From Halalkaliarchaeum sp. AArc-CO (lineage in GTDB: Archaea > Halobacteriota > Halobacteria > Halobacteriales > Haloferacaceae): 64,000 bases of DNA. Shown here piece by piece: positions 11,444 to 20,919 of the stretch. Each line of letters begins with the position of its first letter. Position 1 is the stretch's first letter. The translations under genes and the position numbers were made by a program. The DNA is taken from the NCBI RefSeq assembly GCF_024972735.1, contig NZ_CP087723.1, positions 124,001 to 188,000 on the forward strand. The letters run 5' to 3'. Under the pieces are notes generated by a model. The model was not told the DNA's origin and made no database searches. It saw nothing but the letters and a program-made list of their open reading frames with translations.

Positions 11444-14400
11444 GTGAGACCGGACGACGAGCGCTACTTCGAGCGGATCGAATCGCGACTCGAGGAGGCG
11501 TTCGACCGCGCGGAGGCCGCGAAAGCGCAGGGACGCGACCCCGAACCGGAGATCGAGATCCCGGTCGCACGCGACATGGCCGACCGGGTGGAGAACATCC
11601 TCGGGATCGACGGCGTGGCCGAACGCGTCCGCGAACTCGAAGGCGAGATGTCTCGCGAGGAGGCCGCCCTCGAGCTGGTGACCGACTTCGTCGAGGGCTC
11701 CGTGGGGGAGTTCGACTCCCGCGCAGGGAAGGTCGAGGGGGCGGTTCGGACCGCGGTAGCGCTGCTCACCGAAGGAGTCGTCGCCGCGCCCATCGAGGGG
11801 ATCGATCGGGTCGAACTGTTGCAAAACGACGACGGGACCGAGTTCATCAACGTCTACTACGCCGGTCCAATACGATCGGCGGGGGGGACCGCCCAGGCGC
11901 TGTCGGTGCTTGTGGCCGACTACGCCCGGTCGCTTCTGGACATCGAGGAGTATCACGCCCGAAGCGACGAGATCGAGCGCTACGCGGAGGAGGTCTCCCT
12001 CTACGACAAGGAGACCGGTCTCCAGTACTCCCCGAAAGACAAGGAGACGAAGTTCATCGCCGAGCACCTGCCGATCATGCTCGACGGGGAAGCCACCGGC
12101 GACGAGGAGGTCTCCGGCTTCCGGGATCTCGACCGCGTCGACACCAACTCGGCCCGCGGCGGGATGTGTCTCGTGCTCGCGGAGGGGATCGCCCTCAAGG
12201 CGCCGAAGATCCAGCGATACACCCGCGAGCTCGAGGAGGTCGACTGGCCGTGGCTCCAGGACCTCATCGACGGCACGATCGGCGAGGAAAACGCTGCCGG
12301 TGACGGATCCAGCGAAGATACTGGACCGGGCGAGGCTGACGTCGAAGGCGAAGGGTCGAACGACGAGGATTCGGATGAAACGGGGGACGCCGCCGACGAA
12401 CGTTCTTCGGGCGGCGACGGCACTCCCGGCCCGCCGCGACCCGAGCCTTCCGAGAAGTTCCTCCGTGACCTGATCGCCGGGCGGCCGGTGTTTTCCCATC
12501 CGTCGGAGCCGGGCGGCTTCCGACTCCGCTACGGTCGCGCCCGTAACCACGGCTTCGCGACCGGTGGGATCCATCCGGCGACGATGCACATCGTCGATGA
12601 CTTCCTCGCGGCCGGCACCCAGATCAAGACCGAACGCCCCGGCAAGGCACACGGCATCGTGCCGGTCGACAGCATCGAAGGGCCGACCGTCCGGCTGGCA
12701 AACGGCGACGTCCGGCGGATCGACGACCCCGAGGAAGCACTGGAAGTGCACAACGGCGTCGAGGAGATCATCGACGCAGGGGAGTATCTCGTCAATTACG
12801 GTGAGTTCGTCGAGAACAACCACCCGCTGGCGCCCGCGTCGTACACGGTCGAGTGGTGGGTTCAGGAGTTCGACGCCGCCGGCGCGGACGTCCAGGCGCT
12901 CCGGGACGATCCCCACGTCGATCTCGCGGATCCGACCGTCGAGGAGGCGCTCTCGTGGGCCCGCGAGTACGACTGTCCGCTCCACCCGACGTACACCTAC
13001 CTGTGGCACGACGTCGACGTCGAGACGTTCGAGGCGCTCGCGGAGGCCGTGGCCGACGGGGAAGTCGTCGACTCGACAGCTGATCACTCCTCCGACGCGG
13101 GCGTCGCGGACGGCGGTGTGATCGATCGAAAACCCTCGGAAATCGGTCCGGCTGCCGAGGAGGCTTCACTCGTCATCGAGCGCACGGAGACGACGCGACG
13201 GGCGCTCGAACTGTTGCTCGTCGAACACACACAGACGGACGAGACGCTCGAGATTCCCACCTGGCGACCCCTCGCTCGCTCGCTGGGGATCGACGACGAC
13301 CTGCAGCGGACCTGGGAGTCGGCGGCGCTGTCGTCGGCTCGCGAGTACGCCGGCGGCGACAACGCCGTCGAGGCCGTCAACGCGGTCGCCCCCTTCGAGA
13401 TCCGGGAGCGCGCCCCAACCCGGATCGGAAACCGGATGGGCCGTCCGGAAAAATCCGAGTCGCGGGAGCTCTCGCCGGCGGTCCACGCGCTGTTCCCGAT
13501 CACGGAGGCCGGTGGGAGCCAGCGCGACATCGCCAAGGCCGCCAAGACGCTGGACGACCGGGGACGGCGAGGAATGCTCGACGTCGACATCAACGACCGC
13601 GTCTGCCCCGGCTGCGGCGACCACACCTACCACAACCGATGTCCCGACTGCGAGGTCCACACCGAACTGTACTACGAGTGCGGCGAGTGTGGAACCGAGT
13701 GTGAACCCGACGAGTCGGGGCGGGTGGTCTGTCCCCGGTGCGAGTGGGACGTGACGGCGGCGACGCGCCGGGAGATCGACCTCAACGAGCGGTTCCACGC
13801 GGCGATGGAGTCGGTCGCAGAGCGCGAGGCGGCCTTCGACGTCCTGAAAGGCGTCAAGGGGCTCTCCTCGGAGCACAAGGTCCCCGAACCGATCGAGAAG
13901 GGGATCCTCCGGGCGAAACACGGCGTCTCGTCGTTCAAGGACGGCACGGTCCGATACGACATGACCGACCTCCCGGTGACGGCCGTTCGGCCGGCCGAAC
14001 TGGACGTCACCGCCGACCAGTTCCGCGAACTGGGGTATCACGCCGACATCGACGGGGAGCCGCTGCGCCACGACGACCAGCTGGTCGAGCTGAAGGTGCA
14101 GGACATCGTCCTCTCGGACGGCGCCGCCGAGCACATGATGAACACCGCCGACTTCGTCGACGAACTGCTGGAGGACTTCTACGACCTGCCGCCCTTCTAC
14201 GAGCTCGAGGATCGGGAGGACCTGGTCGGCGAGCTGGTGTTCGGCATGGCCCCCCACACGAGTGCGGCGACGGTGGGGCGCGTCGTCGGCTTCACGTCGG
14301 CGGCGGTCGGCTACGCGCACCCGTACTTTCACGCGGCGAAGCGACGGAACTGCTTCCATCCGGAGACTCAGATCACGTTCGACGACGGCGACGGCTGGCG

Positions 14401-17260
14401 AACCACATCGATTCGGGACTTGGTGGAAGAACGGCTTCGGGATTCCGGTGAGGAAGACCTCGATGAGGACAACTTCGGGACGCTGACGCGAGAGCTGGAC
14501 GGAACCGACGGCGAGCTTCGGGTGCGATCCGTCGACGCAGTCGGGACCCCGACGCCCAAGCCCGTCTCGGCGGTTTCGAAACATCCGAGCCAGGACCACC
14601 TCCTGTGGATTCGAACCTCCGGCGGGAACGAGATCCGGGTTACCCCCGATCACACGATGCTCCGGCTCGAGGACGGCACTCCGAGTCACGTTAGCGCGAG
14701 CGAACTCGCGGTCGGCGACGAGGTGCCTGCAGCGACGATGGACGAGGGAACGGCACCCGTCGGCGGAGCGACGGCGAGTGGGGGTGTCGATGCCCTCGTC
14801 TCCGAGTCCGGCGACGTCGAACACGACGAAGTCCTGGCTGTCGACGCCGATCAAATCGTGGCCATCGACGTCGTCGAAAGCGACGTCGAATACACGTACA
14901 ACCTCACGGTCGAGGAGACTCACACCGTCGTCGCCGACGGAATCGCGGCCAAGCAGTGCGATGGCGACGAGGATTGCGTAATGCTGCTCATGGACGGGCT
15001 GTTGAACTTCAGCAGACAGTATTTGCCGGATAAACGGGGCGGGAGCGTCGCGGAAGATGCTCGACTCGTTGCAGTCGATCCCGACGATCGAGTTCAGTAC
15101 CTCACTTTCGACGAACTCTGGCACGCACTCGACGCTCCCGTCGAGGTTGACGGGAAGTTCAGGAAACGAACCTGTGTGGAAGAAGGATGGCAGACGTACG
15201 CGTTCGATGCGAATCACGAAGCCAGCCTCAAGCCGATCGAGAAGGCAATCCGGTATCGTGCGGACGAAGACGACGAACTGCTACGGGTCGAAACGCAGTT
15301 CGGACGGTCTCTCGAAATTACTCCAAATCACAGTCTCTTTCGTTACGACGACGGTATCGAGGAGGTTGCCGGCGAGAACCTCGGAGCGGGTGACCTGATT
15401 GTCGCCCCGCAGTCTCTCGATATCGATCCGACAGGTTCTGTCATCGATGTTGCAGAGTGTGTTCCAGATCCGTACGTATTTATCGACGATCGGGTCGAAG
15501 AGTATCTCCGCCGGGTGTGGGAGAACGCCGATCACGGCAGCGAAACGAGAGCCGCATTTGACGGCGGACTTTCCTACCGGCTATCAAAAAAGAAGGTGTC
15601 CCTCGAAACGCTAGCGGAAATCGAAACGACGTCGGGGAAGTGGCGGGACGACTGGAACCCGAAAATCGGACTGAAGGGATCTTCGGAGGGGATTCAGCGG
15701 TACATTACTCTCGACGAAGACTTCGCCTGGCTACTCGGGATGTTCGCCGCGGAGGGATCCCTCTCCAGTACTCGTCCGACGATCCACAACGGCGAGGAAG
15801 AACTCGTGCGCCGCGTTGAGCGGACGACCGAGGACAGCCTCGGAACTGGTCCGACTGTTCGATGGTCGAACAAGGCCTACGAAGTCGCATTCCCTGCGGT
15901 ATTCAGAGAGGTGCTCTTCGATCTCGGATTCGCGGACAAAGACTCATACAATTCGAGCGAGAAGGTCGTTCCCGACCCGATCCTTCGAAGCGAGAAGTCG
16001 GTCGTCAAAGCGTTCCTCCGTGGATTCATTGCCGGTGACGGAAGCGAGACGAGCAACGATAACCACACGACAATCGGCTTCCATACGACCAGTGAGGATC
16101 TCAAGGACGGAATCGTTTTCCTCCTGCATCGACTCGGGATCGTCGCCAACATTTCTCGAAAGGAACGAGACGAATCGCGCCAGCCGATTTACACCGTCTC
16201 TGTCTCGGGTGGGGCCGCCGACAACCCACTGAGGAAGATTCTCGACGATGAGGAGATGTATCAGCCGAAAAGTCTTGTCGTGACGGTTCCCGATGCGTTG
16301 ATGGAGATCCGCGAGATGGATCTCACGGGGGTCAAACAGCTGATTCCGAAGTACCTGAAACGCCGCGAGAACATATCGTTAGAGAAGCTCGAGGAGATCG
16401 TAACTGAACTCGACGGTCGGGAACTTCCCTCGGCCGCCGCCGATAAATTGACTGAGATCCGCCCGTTGATCGACGGCGATCTGTCGTATCTTCGGATTAC
16501 AGACATCGATCGCGTCGATTACGAAGGATACCTCTATGACCTCCAGGTCGGTGGAGAACCGATCTTTACTGCGAACTGGCTGTACGCACACAATTCTATG
16601 GACGCACCCCTGGTGATGTCCTCCCGGATCGACCCCTCCGAGATCGACGACGAGGCGCACAACATGGACATCGTTCGGGAGTACCCCCTGGAGTTTTACG
16701 AGGCGACCCGTCGGATGGCCGATCCCGGGGAGGTGGAGGAACTGATCCAGCTCGGGGAGGACACCCTCGGCACCGACGACGAGTATCGCGGGTTCGACCA
16801 CACCCACGACACCACCGACATCGCGATGGGACCGGATCTTTCGGCGTACAAGACGCTGGGGTCGATGATGGACAAGATGGACGCCCAGTTGGAGCTGGCC
16901 CGGAAGCTCCGGGCGGTCGACGAGACCGACGTCGCCGAACGAGTGATCGAGTATCACTTCCTGCCGGACTTGATCGGCAACCTCCGGGCGTTCGCCCGCC
17001 AGGAGACCCGGTGTCTCGACTGCGAGACGAAGTACCGCAGGATGCCCTTGTCCGGCGAGTGTCGCAACTGCGGCGGCACCGTCAACCTCACGGTTCACGA
17101 GGGGTCGGTGAACAAGTACATGGACACCGCCATCGAGGTGGCCGACCGGTTCGACTGCCGGGAGTACACCAAACAGCGGCTGGAGATCCTCGACCAGTCG
17201 CTGGAGTCGATATTCGAGGACGACACCAACAAACAGTCGGGAATTGCCGACTTCATGTAA
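11444..17260 (+). CDS. polC: DNA polymerase D large subunit (DP2) with two inteins
   Basis: 1938 codons; removing both inteins (202 and 517 aa) leaves 1219 aa, the normal size of haloarchaeal DP2. It is the catalytic subunit of the replicative archaeal PolD; the DP1 partner is not in this window. GTG start at 11444. An Asp/Glu/Gly/Ser-rich insertion near residues 285-330 is halophile-specific. A zinc-ribbon cluster (CPGCGDHTYHNRCPDC ... CGECGTEC ... CPRCEW) lies near 720-770, the catalytic Asp motif CDGDEDC starts at 1172, and a C-terminal zinc finger (CLDCETKY ... CRNCGG) follows. Both inteins interrupt the catalytic core, and only a 29-residue extein island lies between them. The splice products join as RRN-CDGDED and KRGG-SMDAPL. 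Confidence 0.96.
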   Translation: MRPDDERYFERIESRLEEAFDRAEAAKAQGRDPEPEIEIPVARDMADRVENILGIDGVAERVRELEGEMSREEAALELVTDFVEGSVGEFDSRAGKVEGAVRTAVALLTEGVVAAPIEGIDRVELLQNDDGTEFINVYYAGPIRSAGGTAQALSVLVADYARSLLDIEEYHARSDEIERYAEEVSLYDKETGLQYSPKDKETKFIAEHLPIMLDGEATGDEEVSGFRDLDRVDTNSARGGMCLVLAEGIALKAPKIQRYTRELEEVDWPWLQDLIDGTIGEENAAGDGSSEDTGPGEADVEGEGSNDEDSDETGDAADERSSGGDGTPGPPRPEPSEKFLRDLIAGRPVFSHPSEPGGFRLRYGRARNHGFATGGIHPATMHIVDDFLAAGTQIKTERPGKAHGIVPVDSIEGPTVRLANGDVRRIDDPEEALEVHNGVEEIIDAGEYLVNYGEFVENNHPLAPASYTVEWWVQEFDAAGADVQALRDDPHVDLADPTVEEALSWAREYDCPLHPTYTYLWHDVDVETFEALAEAVADGEVVDSTADHSSDAGVADGGVIDRKPSEIGPAAEEASLVIERTETTRRALELLLVEHTQTDETLEIPTWRPLARSLGIDDDLQRTWESAALSSAREYAGGDNAVEAVNAVAPFEIRERAPTRIGNRMGRPEKSESRELSPAVHALFPITEAGGSQRDIAKAAKTLDDRGRRGMLDVDINDRVCPGCGDHTYHNRCPDCEVHTELYYECGECGTECEPDESGRVVCPRCEWDVTAATRREIDLNERFHAAMESVAEREAAFDVLKGVKGLSSEHKVPEPIEKGILRAKHGVSSFKDGTVRYDMTDLPVTAVRPAELDVTADQFRELGYHADIDGEPLRHDDQLVELKVQDIVLSDGAAEHMMNTADFVDELLEDFYDLPPFYELEDREDLVGELVFGMAPHTSAATVGRVVGFTSAAVGYAHPYFHAAKRRNCFHPETQITFDDGDGWRTTSIRDLVEERLRDSGEEDLDEDNFGTLTRELDGTDGELRVRSVDAVGTPTPKPVSAVSKHPSQDHLLWIRTSGGNEIRVTPDHTMLRLEDGTPSHVSASELAVGDEVPAATMDEGTAPVGGATASGGVDALVSESGDVEHDEVLAVDADQIVAIDVVESDVEYTYNLTVEETHTVVADGIAAKQCDGDEDCVMLLMDGLLNFSRQYLPDKRGGSVAEDARLVAVDPDDRVQYLTFDELWHALDAPVEVDGKFRKRTCVEEGWQTYAFDANHEASLKPIEKAIRYRADEDDELLRVETQFGRSLEITPNHSLFRYDDGIEEVAGENLGAGDLIVAPQSLDIDPTGSVIDVAECVPDPYVFIDDRVEEYLRRVWENADHGSETRAAFDGGLSYRLSKKKVSLETLAEIETTSGKWRDDWNPKIGLKGSSEGIQRYITLDEDFAWLLGMFAAEGSLSSTRPTIHNGEEELVRRVERTTEDSLGTGPTVRWSNKAYEVAFPAVFREVLFDLGFADKDSYNSSEKVVPDPILRSEKSVVKAFLRGFIAGDGSETSNDNHTTIGFHTTSEDLKDGIVFLLHRLGIVANISRKERDESRQPIYTVSVSGGAADNPLRKILDDEEMYQPKSLVVTVPDALMEIREMDLTGVKQLIPKYLKRRENISLEKLEEIVTELDGRELPSAAADKLTEIRPLIDGDLSYLRITDIDRVDYEGYLYDLQVGGEPIFTANWLYAHNSMDAPLVMSSRIDPSEIDDEAHNMDIVREYPLEFYEATRRMADPGEVEELIQLGEDTLGTDDEYRGFDHTHDTTDIAMGPDLSAYKTLGSMMDKMDAQLELARKLRAVDETDVAERVIEYHFLPDLIGNLRAFARQETRCLDCETKYRRMPLSGECRNCGGTVNLTVHEGSVNKYMDTAIEVADRFDCREYTKQRLEILDQSLESIFEDDTNKQSGIADFM
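14351..14956 (+). other. Mini-intein 1 in polC (residues 970-1171)
   Basis: 202 aa. Starts with Cys970 (CFHPETQITF, block A), has the block B motif TPDH (T1067-H1070), and ends ...HTVVADGIAAKQ before the +1 Cys1172. No LAGLIDADG motifs are visible, so it lacks a homing endonuclease. The last residue is Gln instead of Asn, as reported for the Pyrococcus abyssi PolII intein, and the penultimate residue is Lys rather than the usual His. It sits directly before the catalytic CDGDED motif. Confidence 0.9.
15044..16594 (+). other. Full-length intein 2 with LAGLIDADG endonuclease (residues 1201-1717)
   Basis: 517 aa. Starts with Ser1201 (SVAEDARLVAV) and ends LYAHN with canonical H1716-N1717; the +1 residue is Ser1718. 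Block B is TPNH (T1293-H1296). Two LAGLIDADG-type motifs are visible, LLGMFAAEG (1430-1438, acidic E1437) and FIAGDG (1528-1533, acidic D1532), so the homing endonuclease may be active. Base composition is visibly more AT-rich than the flanking exteins, consistent with horizontal acquisition. Confidence 0.92.
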
Positions 17261-17307: not shown

Positions 17308-17315
17308 TATAATAA
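17308..17315 (+). promoter_or_regulatory. TATA box of the UbiD-AcnX-UbiX operon
   Basis: tataataa ends 22 nt before the ATG at 17338, the typical distance for a leaderless haloarchaeal transcript. It lies in the short gap after polC and marks the operon as an independent transcription unit. Confidence 0.7.
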
Positions 17316-17337
17316 GGCCGCGCGTTCGACCCGGGGT

Positions 17338-18639
17338 ATGGGTCTCAGGAGCTTTCTGGAGGGGACGGAGCCAACCGTGCTCACCGAGCCGGTCGATCCC
17401 CGGTTCGAACTCCCGGCGCTTTCGACGCGCGAGGAGACGCGTCCGATCGTCTTCGAGGACGTGGCCGGTCATCCGAACGTGCGCGCGGTCGCCAACCTGG
17501 TGTCCACCCGGTCGCTGATCGGATCGGCGCTGGGCGTCGAGCCGTCGGCGATCATCGACGAGGTGAGTTCGGCGATGGACGATCCGACGCCGCTATCCCG
17601 GACGGAACCGCCGGCGTTCGAGCACGTCGCCGACGAGCCCGCGATCGCCGAGGAGTTGCCGGTGCCGATCTACTACGACGAACACGAGCGGCAGTACTTC
17701 GCCTCGACGATCGTGATCGCGAAGGACCCCGACACCGGCGTCCACAACCTCTCGTTCCATCGGATGATGGTCGAGGAGGGCAACCGGCTCGTGATGCGGA
17801 TGGTCGAGCGCCACCTCCACGACATCTACACCCGATCGGGGGAAGAACTCGATGTCGCGATCGTCGTGGGCGTCCATCCGGCCGTCGAGATCGCCGCCGC
17901 GACGTCGTTTTCGCCGGACATGAGCGAACTGAAGCTCGCCAACCGGCTCCACGGCGGGGAGCTGGCGACGACGGAAGTGAAGGGGTTGCAGATCCCCAGC
18001 GAAGCCGAGGTCGTCATGTTCGCGACGATCACGGACGAGCTGGCCGAGGAAGGGCCGTTCGTCGACCTCTCGCGCACCTGGGACAAGGTCCGACAGCAGC
18101 CGGTCGTCGAAGTCAACGAACTGTGGACGCGGCCGGATCCGCTGGCGCGGGTGATCGTCCCCGGCAAGCGGGAGCACGCGCACCTGATGGGGATCCCCCA
18201 GGAGCCCCGGATCTACCGGATCGTCGAGAACACCGTCCCCACGGTACAGAACGTGGTGCTCACCCCCGGCGGCTGTTCGTGGCTCCACGGCGTCGTCCAG
18301 CTGGAGCCGCGGGCCGCGGGGGATCCGAAGAACGCCGGGATGGCGGCGCTTGCGGCCCACCCGTCGATGAAGAAGGTGACACTCGTGGATCCGGACGTCG
18401 ACCCCGCCGATCCGGACGCCGTCGAGTGGGCCACCGCGACCCGGATGCAACCCGACGAGGACATCGTCACCATCGAGGGGGCGAAGGGGTCTTCGCTCGA
18501 TCCCTCGCAGGACTACGACCGCGGCGTGACGAGCAAGTGGATCGTCGACGCGACGATGCCCCGCGATCGGGACCGGGAGGCGTTCCTGGAGGCGACCGTC
18601 CCCGGCGCCGATGACGTCACCCTCGAGGAGTATCGGTAG
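17338..18639 (+). CDS. UbiD-family decarboxylase, candidate anhydromevalonate phosphate decarboxylase
   Basis: 433 aa, in the length range of archaeal UbiD homologues. UbiD enzymes use prenylated FMN for reversible decarboxylation. Visible family parts are HNLSFHRMMV with a following NRLVMRMVERHLHDIY (cofactor/metal region), IPSEAEVVMFATI and EEGPFVDLSRTWD (the E/EGPF motif), and RIYRIVENTVPTVQNV near the prFMN pocket. The neighbours are AcnX large and small subunits and UbiX, exactly the set that converts mevalonate 5-phosphate to isopentenyl phosphate in Aeropyrum pernix (phosphomevalonate dehydratase, then this decarboxylase). Alternative: an aromatic-acid decarboxylase. The ATG at 17338 follows a TATA box. 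Confidence 0.85.
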   Translation: MGLRSFLEGTEPTVLTEPVDPRFELPALSTREETRPIVFEDVAGHPNVRAVANLVSTRSLIGSALGVEPSAIIDEVSSAMDDPTPLSRTEPPAFEHVADEPAIAEELPVPIYYDEHERQYFASTIVIAKDPDTGVHNLSFHRMMVEEGNRLVMRMVERHLHDIYTRSGEELDVAIVVGVHPAVEIAAATSFSPDMSELKLANRLHGGELATTEVKGLQIPSEAEVVMFATITDELAEEGPFVDLSRTWDKVRQQPVVEVNELWTRPDPLARVIVPGKREHAHLMGIPQEPRIYRIVENTVPTVQNVVLTPGGCSWLHGVVQLEPRAAGDPKNAGMAALAAHPSMKKVTLVDPDVDPADPDAVEWATATRMQPDEDIVTIEGAKGSSLDPSQDYDRGVTSKWIVDATMPRDRDREAFLEATVPGADDVTLEEYR

Positions 18640-18695
18640 TCGACTGTCGTCGAATCGAGGCCGAACGCAACCGAACCCACAGGAGGAGACATAAC

Positions 18696-19880
18696 ATGCA
18701 TCTCACACGCGAGGAAGAGGAACTGCTCGAATCGGACACTCCCGGCGAGCGAAAGGCGATGGAGCTGCTGGTGACGCTGGGAGACGTGTACGGCGCCGAG
18801 GAGATGGTCGAGATCGGTTCGGCACAGGCGTCCGGCATCTCTTATAAGTCGATCGGCGACCCGGGGGTGGAGTTCCTGGAAGGGTTCGCCGCGGAGGGTG
18901 CCGAGGTGTCGGTGCCGACGTTCGCCAACCCCGCCGGCATGGACATGCAGCAGTGGCGCGAGATGGGCGTCAGCGAGGAGTTCGCCGAGAAACAGGAGCG
19001 CATCCAGGACGCGCTGCGCGAGATGGGGATCACGCTGTCGTTCACCTGCACGCCGTACCTGGCGGGGAACCTGCCCCGTCGCGGCGAGCACGTCGCGTGG
19101 GCGGAGTCGTCGGCGGTGTCGTTCGTCAACTCCGTAGTCGGCGCGCGGACGAACCGCGAGGGGGGGCCGTCGGCGCTGGCGGCAGCGATCACCGGCCGGA
19201 CGCCGAAACACGGCCTCCACCTCGAGGAGAACCGCCGGCCCGACTACCTGATCGAAGTCGACGCCGAGATCGACTCCCAGTCGGACTTCGCCGCGCTCGG
19301 CTCGTGGGCCGGCCGGATCGTCGAGGACGACATCCCGTACTTCACGGGAATCGACCACGGCAGGACGGACGAGTTGAAATCCCTGGGCGCCGCGATGGCC
19401 GCCTCCGGGGCCGTCGCGCTGTACTACGTCGAGGGGGTGACGACAGACGAGACACCCCCCGCGTCCGAAGCGGTCGAGACCCTCACGTTCGAGCCGTCGG
19501 ACCTCCAGGCGGAGTACGATGAACTCACGACCGGCGAGAACCCCGAACTGGTCGTCTTCGGCTGTCCGCACGCCTCGATGGAGGAGATCGAGGAGATCGC
19601 CGCCACCGTCGAGGGGAAGACACTCACGAGCGACCTGTGGGTGTGCACGAGCGGTGCCGTCAAGACGTGGGCCGACCGCAACGGTCACACCGAGACGATC
19701 GAGGCCGCCGGCGGGATGGTGCTTGCCGACACCTGCAACGTCGTCTCCCCGATCGAGGAACTCGGCTACGAGACCAGCGCCACCGACTCGGCGAAGGCCG
19801 CGAACTACCTGCCCGGCTTCTGCAACCAGCAGGTGGTCTTCGAGGACAAGCGCGCGCTGCTCGAGGAGGTGGTCGAATGA
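18696..19880 (+). CDS. Aconitase X catalytic subunit (candidate phosphomevalonate dehydratase large subunit)
   Basis: 394 aa, the AcnX (DUF521) large subunit. It carries conserved cysteines suited to an iron-sulfur cluster: C118 (FTCTPYL), C290 (FGCPH), C317 (LWVCTSG), C347 (ADTCNVV) and C376 (GFCNQQ). SAQASGISYKSIG near residue 42 and NSVVGARTNREGGPSAL (145-161) are family hallmarks. In archaea it pairs with the small swivelling subunit encoded next. AcnX proteins in bacteria can be cis-3-hydroxyproline dehydratases; the UbiD and UbiX neighbours favour the mevalonate-phosphate role here. The stop codon overlaps the next start (ATGA at 19877), indicating translational coupling. Confidence 0.88.
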   Translation: MHLTREEEELLESDTPGERKAMELLVTLGDVYGAEEMVEIGSAQASGISYKSIGDPGVEFLEGFAAEGAEVSVPTFANPAGMDMQQWREMGVSEEFAEKQERIQDALREMGITLSFTCTPYLAGNLPRRGEHVAWAESSAVSFVNSVVGARTNREGGPSALAAAITGRTPKHGLHLEENRRPDYLIEVDAEIDSQSDFAALGSWAGRIVEDDIPYFTGIDHGRTDELKSLGAAMAASGAVALYYVEGVTTDETPPASEAVETLTFEPSDLQAEYDELTTGENPELVVFGCPHASMEEIEEIAATVEGKTLTSDLWVCTSGAVKTWADRNGHTETIEAAGGMVLADTCNVVSPIEELGYETSATDSAKAANYLPGFCNQQVVFEDKRALLEEVVE

Positions 19881-20302
19881 CGCAAGCGCCGATCGAGGGT
19901 CGCGCGATCACCGACGGCCGCGGCGAGGGCGAGGTGATCCGGTCGTCGGAGCCGGTGAGCTTCTACGGCGCGGTCGACCTGGACACCGGGGAGTTCATCG
20001 AGGAGGGACACGAACTCGAGGGGCACAACGTGGCCGGCAAAGTGCTCGTCTTCCCCCGCGGAAAGGGATCGACCGTCGGGTCGTACGTGCTCTACGGGCT
20101 CGCGAAGAACGGCGTCGCCCCGGCGGCGATCCTCAACGAGGAGACCGAGACGATCGTGGCGACGGGCGCGATCCTCGGTGAGATCCCCTGTATGGACTCG
20201 CTTTCGGCGCCGTTGTCGTCGCTTCCCGAGGGCGAACGGGTGGTCGTCGACGCCGACGCAGAACGGGTGCTCGTCGACGGCGACGTCGGGGAGGAACCGT
20301 GA
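19877..20302 (+). CDS. Aconitase X swivel subunit (candidate phosphomevalonate dehydratase small subunit)
   Basis: 141 aa, DUF126 swivelling domain. The active-site serine motif is PRGKGST (S65), which equals the catalytic serine of aconitase swivel domains. It completes the heterodimeric dehydratase with the upstream gene, with which it overlaps by 4 bp. The downstream ubiX also overlaps (GTGA at 20299), so three genes form an uninterrupted coupled unit. Confidence 0.9.
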   Translation: MTQAPIEGRAITDGRGEGEVIRSSEPVSFYGAVDLDTGEFIEEGHELEGHNVAGKVLVFPRGKGSTVGSYVLYGLAKNGVAPAAILNEETETIVATGAILGEIPCMDSLSAPLSSLPEGERVVVDADAERVLVDGDVGEEP

Positions 20303-20919
20303 CCGACCGAGTGCCCGACAGACAGAATGGGAACACGGGGGACGACGGCCAGCCCAGGGTCGTGCTCGGAGTGACCGGCGCGTCGGGGATCCCGATCGCG
20401 CTCCGGACCGCGGAGGCGCTCGCGGCCCGGACGGAGCTGGTCACGGTCGTCTCCGAGGCGGCCCGAAAGACCGCCCGCCACGAGGTCGCCGATCCCGACG
20501 CCGCCCTCGAGCGGTTCGCGGAGCTGTCGACGGCGACGTACGACGAAGACGAGATCGCCGCCGCAGTGGCCTCGGGATCGGTGGCGTTCCGGGGGATGGC
20601 GATCGTGCCGGCGTCGATGAACACCGTCGCCGCGATCGCCTCGGGGCGGGCCGATTCGCTCATCACCCGGACTGCCGGCGTCTGTCTCAAGGAGCGACGG
20701 ACGCTCGTGGTCGTCCCCCGGGAGACCCCGCTGAGCGAGATTCACCTGCGGAACCTGACCGACCTCGCGGGCATGGGTGTCGACGTCGTGCCGCCGGTGC
20801 TGGGCTTTTATTACGAGCCTGACGGGATCGACGACGTCGTCGACCACGTCGCAGGTCGCGTACTCGATCGGTTCGGGTTCGATCACGACCTCTACGAGTC
20901 GTGGGGCGACTTGGATTGA
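20299..20919 (+). CDS. ubiX: UbiX flavin prenyltransferase
   Basis: 206 aa. Makes prenylated FMN, the cofactor of UbiD decarboxylases, by joining dimethylallyl phosphate to FMN. Motifs are GVTGASGIPIALR (about 27-39), the mid-domain VPASMNTVAAIA, and LKERRTLVVVPRETPLSEIHLRNL near the C-terminus, all characteristic of UbiX. The GTG start overlaps the preceding stop. Its presence next to the UbiD gene strongly suggests that UbiD needs prFMN. Confidence 0.94.
   Translation: MTDRVPDRQNGNTGDDGQPRVVLGVTGASGIPIALRTAEALAARTELVTVVSEAARKTARHEVADPDAALERFAELSTATYDEDEIAAAVASGSVAFRGMAIVPASMNTVAAIASGRADSLITRTAGVCLKERRTLVVVPRETPLSEIHLRNLTDLAGMGVDVVPPVLGFYYEPDGIDDVVDHVAGRVLDRFGFDHDLYESWGDLD

Follow-up and report, generated by a model that had tools for sequence, protein, structure and literature searches.

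The locus raises the question of whether a haloarchaeon can hold the dehydratase–decarboxylase branch of the archaeal (modified) mevalonate pathway, known from Aeropyrum pernix and T. kodakarensis. Halobacteria are described as not using it, and reviews and enzyme papers assign phosphomevalonate decarboxylase (MvaD) to this class instead. The window, which is the whole stretch of 64,000 nucleotides analysed here, belongs to Halalkaliarchaeum sp. AArc-CO (contig NZ_CP087723.1, positions 124,001 to 188,000). A sequence-only reading had described four same-strand genes at 17338–20919, three of them joined by start-stop overlaps, with one leaderless promoter, and had seen in them this archaeal branch. 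All four open reading frames were confirmed there on the + strand, and the unit was composed of the following features:

17309–17316, + strand: TATA-like element TATAATAA, putative leaderless promoter, about 21–29 nt 5' of the UbiD ATG
17338–18639, + strand: UbiD gene, 433 aa (TIGR00148, PF01977; in a clade with AcnX-associated UbiDs; dN/dS 0.11)
18696–19880, + strand: AcnX large subunit, 394 aa, assigned as phosphomevalonate dehydratase large subunit from PF04412, 7CNR and its residues
19877–20302, + strand: AcnX small (swivel) subunit, 141 aa (PF01989, 7CNR chain B, kept residues)
20299–20919, + strand: UbiX flavin prenyltransferase, 206 aa, GTG start, predicted prFMN supplier for UbiD (TIGR00421, NF004685)

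The two AcnX genes overlapped by 4 nt (ATGA), and the small-subunit and UbiX genes likewise by 4 nt (GTGA). The overlaps join only three of the four genes, because 56 nt part UbiD from the AcnX large subunit. The TATA-like element fits a putative leaderless haloarchaeal promoter, and by eye such an element stood at about equal distance 5' of UbiD in most of the other 17 operon-bearing genomes. Up to this point, the layout described earlier was borne out. The unit was found in 18 of 391 Halobacteria genomes, representing 6 of 86 genera and three families, and the same four genes stood in identical order in all 18. Furthermore, short gaps or start-stop overlaps between them were retained in nearly all of these genomes, and the dN/dS of each gene was 0.10–0.17 when two Halalkaliarchaeum species were compared. 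The arrangement is not due to chance, because the order is conserved and the ratios are low. The patchy occurrence would suit a remnant of the ancestral archaeal pathway that is decaying and has no function today. However, four intact genes in one order, their retained spacing and dN/dS values near 0.1 make this extremely improbable, and it was rejected as contradicted by selection and conservation.

The identity of the AcnX genes was established directly. Profile searches assigned the large subunit to PF04412 (7e-150) and the swivel domain to PF01989 (5e-32). The closest solved relative of the large subunit was the AcnX of T. kodakarensis (7CNR, 354 bits; its complex with mevalonate 5-phosphate, MVA5P, is 7CNS), compared with only 203–208 bits for hydroxyproline dehydratase, and the small subunit matched chain B of 7CNR. 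In the alignment, the cluster cysteines (T. kodakarensis C110, C283 and C342) and E129, S130, S131, K361, Y365, G48, S50 and N79 were identical in 18/18 operon genomes. The roles of the site residues have been described in PMC8184944, and the cluster cysteines in PMC10040528 and PMC8184944. In addition, Thr63 and Val64 of the small subunit, which contact MVA5P, were retained within GKGSTVG. Compared with T. kodakarensis, haloarchaeal AcnX carried Ser in place of N53 and the change A47S, and position L27 of the small subunit was Tyr. Separate large and small subunits in adjoining genes, the type IIb layout, were found in all 18 genomes. In the tree, the 19 haloarchaeal rows formed a single clade (100/100) on a long stem (0.51) among archaeal type IIb proteins; the nearest outside relative, G522, was from the same phylum with weak support (83/66). 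By its sequence, active-site residues and trees, the haloarchaeal AcnX is assigned to the archaeal phosphomevalonate-dehydratase class (type IIb), with that activity predicted. The heterodimeric AcnX of the archaeal pathway has the same cluster cysteines and MVA5P-contacting residues. Hydroxyproline dehydratase shares the AcnX superfamily fold but has its own cluster ligands and pyrrolidine-binding residues, and its subunits are fused in type I. This identity was ruled out by the scores above, by NF051439 (267 bits, under the cut-off of 700) and by the residues.

The operon UbiD matched PF01977/PF20695/PF20696 and TIGR00148 (323 bits, cut-off 245), and UbiX matched TIGR00421 (190 bits, cut-off 109) and, above its cut-off, NF004685. 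The nearest solved structure to UbiD was 6H6V, which we take to be HmfF. HmfF and other furan or aromatic UbiD decarboxylases share the prFMN-dependent UbiD fold, but they lie outside the haloarchaeal/methanogen clade and lack the EGPFVD and LMGxPxEP signatures. In each of 20 AcnX-positive Halobacteriota there was one strong match to the operon UbiD, scoring 216–268 bits, with no other match above 88. In these genomes, too, its gene often immediately preceded that of AcnX; the operon UbiD likewise adjoins AcnX as in many methanogens. The signatures EGPFVD[IL] and LMGxPxEP were common to the operon UbiD and these 20 proteins. The tree test proposed by the sequence-only reading placed AcnX with archaeal type IIb and joined haloarchaeal UbiD to the AcnX-associated UbiDs of methanogens (93/87), apart from HmfF, AnInD and AroY; the outcome named there as refuting did not occur. 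An aromatic- or furan-acid identity was ruled out by this position. UbiD groups with presumed anhydromevalonate-phosphate decarboxylases (AMPDs) of methanogens, the reference AMPDs of the tree being presumed and none biochemically proven, and its substrate and catalysis are predicted. The second Glu of AEIVxEG, present in most UbiDs, was lacking in the haloarchaeal proteins, which differ in this from the archaeal pathway; the AMPD candidates of G522 and G412 lacked it likewise. The co-occurrence of UbiD and AcnX was exact: a UbiD ortholog was present in 18/18 genomes with the AcnX unit and in 0/373 others. The UbiX gene occupied an identical position in all 18 operons, and its inclusion in the operon is a difference from the archaeal pathway. 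A UbiD-query scan of viral contigs gave no match; in the genome-contig scan, an alignment-based query succeeded and a single-protein query gave no match.

The genome search suggested by the earlier reading found both phosphomevalonate decarboxylase and isopentenyl phosphate kinase. An intact mvaD was present (NF040704, 587 bits, cut-off 475), and mevalonate kinase (TIGR00549, 252 bits) and isopentenyl phosphate kinase (NF040647, 167 bits), both above cut-off, were encoded by adjoining genes elsewhere in the genome than the operon. MvaD homologues were found in 391/391 Halobacteria genomes searched; therefore, two routes coexist. The unit thus adds a second route, and replacement of MvaD by the operon branch was ruled out. 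In the archaeal pathway, by comparison, the branch is normally used in place of phosphomevalonate decarboxylase, although this is not required for the reactions. The haloarchaea-type pathway of Haloferax volcanii (MvaD and isopentenyl phosphate kinase, both also encoded in the AArc-CO genome) has the same start, MVA5P, and the same end, isopentenyl phosphate. Its MvaD is a GHMP-family enzyme spending one ATP, whereas the operon encodes unrelated FeS and prFMN enzymes using no ATP. The MvaD route had a dN/dS of 0.095, similar to that of the unit, and both routes were under purifying selection.

A linkage with mvaD was also directly established in some genera. In four genomes of two genera, mvaD lay 66–82 bp downstream of ubiX on the same strand, a position that connects the unit with the mevalonate pathway; G002, a third lineage, had mvaD about 7 kb from the unit. 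Of the four mvaD-clustered genomes, three were examined for upstream genes, and each of these had a polyprenyl diphosphate synthase gene at a distance of a few kb. In both genera with this clustering, a separate TATA-like element may serve mvaD, and co-transcription with the unit is putative only. The earlier reading had alternatively considered a related pair acting on another hydroxy acid, which is disfavoured because the MVA5P-contacting residues are retained. In particular, it is very improbable that AcnX and UbiD, freed by MvaD from a role it made dispensable, were neofunctionalised to act, for instance catabolically, on a different beta-hydroxy acid. N53S, A47S, L27Y and the loss of one conserved UbiD Glu would agree with such a change, but N79, a residue particular to the MVA5P enzyme, is retained, and the neighbouring mvaD and prenyl synthase genes speak against it. 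Moreover, the changes at N53 and A47 are within the family range, because most methanogens have Thr at N53 and other archaea whose sites are intact also carry A47S.

The archaeal branch therefore remains the preferred function, as the sequence-only reading had proposed, with AcnX, UbiD and UbiX fitting it by sequence. The heterodimeric [4Fe-4S] AcnX would convert mevalonate 5-phosphate to trans-anhydromevalonate 5-phosphate and water. The UbiX of the operon would make prFMN for UbiD, which would decarboxylate this intermediate to isopentenyl phosphate, and isopentenyl phosphate kinase would then form IPP. ATP-dependent MvaD would catalyse the same net conversion in the same cell, and the branch is dispensable in principle because MvaD is universal in the 391-genome sample. 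We consider it quite probable that the operon is a complete, ATP-free archaeal mevalonate branch serving as an anoxic bypass beside an oxygen-tolerant MvaD. According to PMC10040528, the dehydratase is oxygen-sensitive and depends on a [4Fe-4S] cluster, and use of the branch spares ATP. The most likely division would give anoxic, energy-limited growth to the oxygen-sensitive, ATP-saving branch and oxic conditions to MvaD. The catalysis, the substrate and this oxygen-dependent division of labour are predictions.

The distribution of the unit was skewed towards oxidase-poor genomes. Operon-bearing genomes had few or no heme-copper oxidases: the median COX1 number was 2 with the operon and 4 without it (P 7e-8 by genome; P 0.012 by genus, after size correction). 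Several operon-bearing genera are sulfur-respiring or strictly anaerobic. The tie to anaerobic life is a correlation over six genera, with exceptions: G129 had neither COX1 nor the unit, and the sole AcnX match in family f4 was of a distant type. It is rather unlikely that the unit forms an active second route with no anoxic specialisation, with both routes constitutive or the unit meeting a particular isoprenoid demand or stress. The similar purifying selection on both routes and the one to three COX1 genes kept by most operon-bearing genomes would be in agreement with it, but the [4Fe-4S] enzyme is known to be sensitive to oxygen (PMC10040528), and this and the enrichment in oxidase-poor genomes favour the anoxic bypass.

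The origin of the unit was weighed using EF-2, AcnX and UbiD trees and an AU test. The haloarchaeal unit genes formed one clade. Acquisition followed by lateral spread among anaerobic haloarchaea is evenly balanced with retention from a methanogen-like ancestor and many losses. Spread is suggested by the patchiness over three families, the long stem of the AcnX clade, a best tree in which Haloarculaceae were not monophyletic, and G165 (Halapricum), which is without the unit. However, a Haloarculaceae clade was not rejected by the AU test (p 0.095), and the weakly supported nearest outside relative, G522, is of the same phylum. Of the earlier proposal that this organism runs or retains the ancestral branch, the presence of the branch genes stands; MvaD is not replaced, and ancestry was not established by the patchy distribution and the trees.

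There is perhaps an even chance that the unit is part of an oxygen switch of an essential step, with the ATP-free FeS/prFMN pair in anoxia and an ATP-dependent GHMP decarboxylase in air, and a living transition state of phosphomevalonate decarboxylase displacing the dehydratase–decarboxylase system. In some genera, the genes for the two partners of such a switch adjoin each other. For annotation, the labels 'UbiD family' or 'aconitase X' alone would conceal a complete isoprenoid branch. A few haloarchaea, mostly capable of anaerobiosis, appear to possess an essential lipid-precursor step in both its versions, and several operon-bearing genera are already cultured. Their two-route genomes make it testable whether MvaD replaced the branch via a stage with both, and whether oxygen and energy supply drive the choice of route.

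The four co-directional genes UbiD, AcnX, AcnX and UbiX proposed in the sequence-only reading were found at exactly matching coordinates, and their names were borne out by Pfam and NCBIfam models.

Genes of the unit (window coordinates; identified with Pfam and NCBIfam models)
17338-18639, same direction as the other three genes, UbiD
18696-19880, co-directional, AcnX large subunit
19877-20302, co-directional, AcnX small subunit
20299-20919, co-directional, UbiX

AcnX large, AcnX small and UbiX were joined by 4-nt overlaps, and a 56-nt gap separated UbiD from AcnX large. A TATA-like element was seen by eye about 21-29 nt before the UbiD start and, also by eye, at a similar spacing in most of the 17 other unit genomes, which is consistent with a putative leaderless promoter. 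Upstream of the unit, an unusually long ORF of 1938 aa (window 11444-17260) with intein-like stretches resembled the DNA polymerase D large subunit.

AcnX large scored 354 bits against the Thermococcus kodakarensis enzyme (7CNR; 7CNS is its complex with mevalonate 5-phosphate, MVA5P), compared with 203-208 bits against hydroxyproline dehydratases. All 18 haloarchaeal copies kept the three cluster cysteines as well as the residues that contact MVA5P; the roles of these positions have been described (PMC8184944, PMC10040528). Position 53 was Ser in haloarchaea, Thr in most methanogens and Asn in T. kodakarensis, and the L27 position of the small subunit was Tyr in haloarchaea. In the AcnX tree, every haloarchaeal copy fell in a single clade (100/100) among the archaeal type IIb enzymes, and the copy from a Halodesulfurarchaeum MAG grouped with that genus (g24). 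In the AcnX of Euryarchaeota MAGs (L048, L050, L052), Ser replaced one of the three cluster cysteines (C283 in T. kodakarensis).

Twenty AcnX-bearing Halobacteriota each had a single strong UbiD partner (216-268 bits, with no other UbiD above 88), often encoded immediately upstream of AcnX. The haloarchaeal UbiD joined these partner UbiDs (93/87), and HmfF, AnInD, AroY and the second UbiDs of methanogens fell outside the clade. The tree contained no biochemically proven anhydromevalonate-phosphate decarboxylase (AMPD), so the AMPD label of the methanogen UbiDs rests on their constant partnership with AcnX. In the AEIVxEG motif, the haloarchaeal UbiDs (L003-L020) lacked the second Glu, which other UbiDs keep. 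This loss is probably tolerated, since the residue was also absent from the AMPD candidates (L098, L099) of two AcnX-bearing archaea, G522 and G412.

At another place, the genome (3.18 Mb) carried adjoining genes for mevalonate kinase and isopentenyl phosphate kinase; both exceeded curated cut-offs. The possibility that the archaeal branch runs instead of the ATP-dependent phosphomevalonate decarboxylase MvaD was not supported, because an intact MvaD was found in the same genome (NF040704, 587 bits, cut-off 475; motif residues kept). Judged from gene content, both routes are present. Between two Halalkaliarchaeum species, dN/dS was 0.10-0.17 for the unit genes and 0.095 for mvaD, indicating purifying selection on both. 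In Halodesulfurarchaeum, both genomes had a second MvaD-like paralog (L041, G001 C1:863933; L042, G007 C1:1800475) with 47-48% identity to the MvaD of the window genome; the one scanned scored 393 bits, under the cut-off of 475.

An MvaD homologue was present in 391 of 391 Halobacteria genomes, and the AcnX unit in 18 (6 of 86 genera, three families), with its gene order kept in all 18. The UbiD ortholog occurred in exactly the same 18 genomes and in 0 of the remaining 373. A nineteenth AcnX match, in G272 (L021; Halobacteriales, another family), was left out of the count as a distant AcnX type; this pair lacked some MVA5P-binding residues. The unit was carried by Halalkaliarchaeum desulfuricum AArc-Sl, of the same genus as the window, and by Halorhabdus (g44), Halapricum (g50), Halodesulfurarchaeum, g53 (probably Halanaeroarchaeum) and g25. 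Within Halapricum, it was present in four genomes and absent from one (G165).

mvaD began 66-82 bp past ubiX on the same strand in four genomes, which represent two genera, Halodesulfurarchaeum and (probably) Halanaeroarchaeum; in a third lineage (G002), it lay about 7 kb from the unit. The same oxidoreductase gene followed mvaD in Halodesulfurarchaeum, Halorhabdus and Halalkaliarchaeum, so the clustered arrangement looks like the old mvaD locus with the unit next to it. A polyprenyl diphosphate synthase gene lay a few kb upstream in all three clustered genomes examined. The clustered mvaD may carry its own TATA-like element, so the unit and mvaD form a gene cluster there but not necessarily a single transcript.

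The patchy spread could fit either of two histories: the unit was retained and then lost many times, or it passed laterally between anaerobic haloarchaea. Haloarculaceae did not stay together in the combined UbiD-AcnX tree, although the AU test did not reject a Haloarculaceae clade (p 0.095). The enzymes and reactions are already known from other archaea, and Asgard MAGs have been described in which two branches coexist (PMC11052028). No report of the archaeal branch in Halobacteria was found in the literature searched, largely open-access papers, and an earlier report is possible.

Heme-copper oxidase genes were fewer in the unit genomes (median 2) than in 62 others (median 4), a non-random set hand-picked to span genera. 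P was 7e-8 when genomes were compared, 0.00025 when genera were compared, and 0.012 for genera once genome size was corrected for. The near-complete haloarchaeal genome G129 (family f10, genus g59) lacked both a heme-copper oxidase match and the AcnX unit, and so departed from the association with anaerobic life. Halorhabdus and Halapricum have anaerobic or fermentative abilities. Halanaeroarchaeum is strictly anaerobic (PMC4866403), Halodesulfurarchaeum is anaerobic (PMC5437934), and H. desulfuricum respires sulfur (PMC6176080). Since the [4Fe-4S] enzyme is oxygen-sensitive and the archaeal branch saves ATP (PMC10040528), a role of the unit under anoxic conditions would be the most economical reading.
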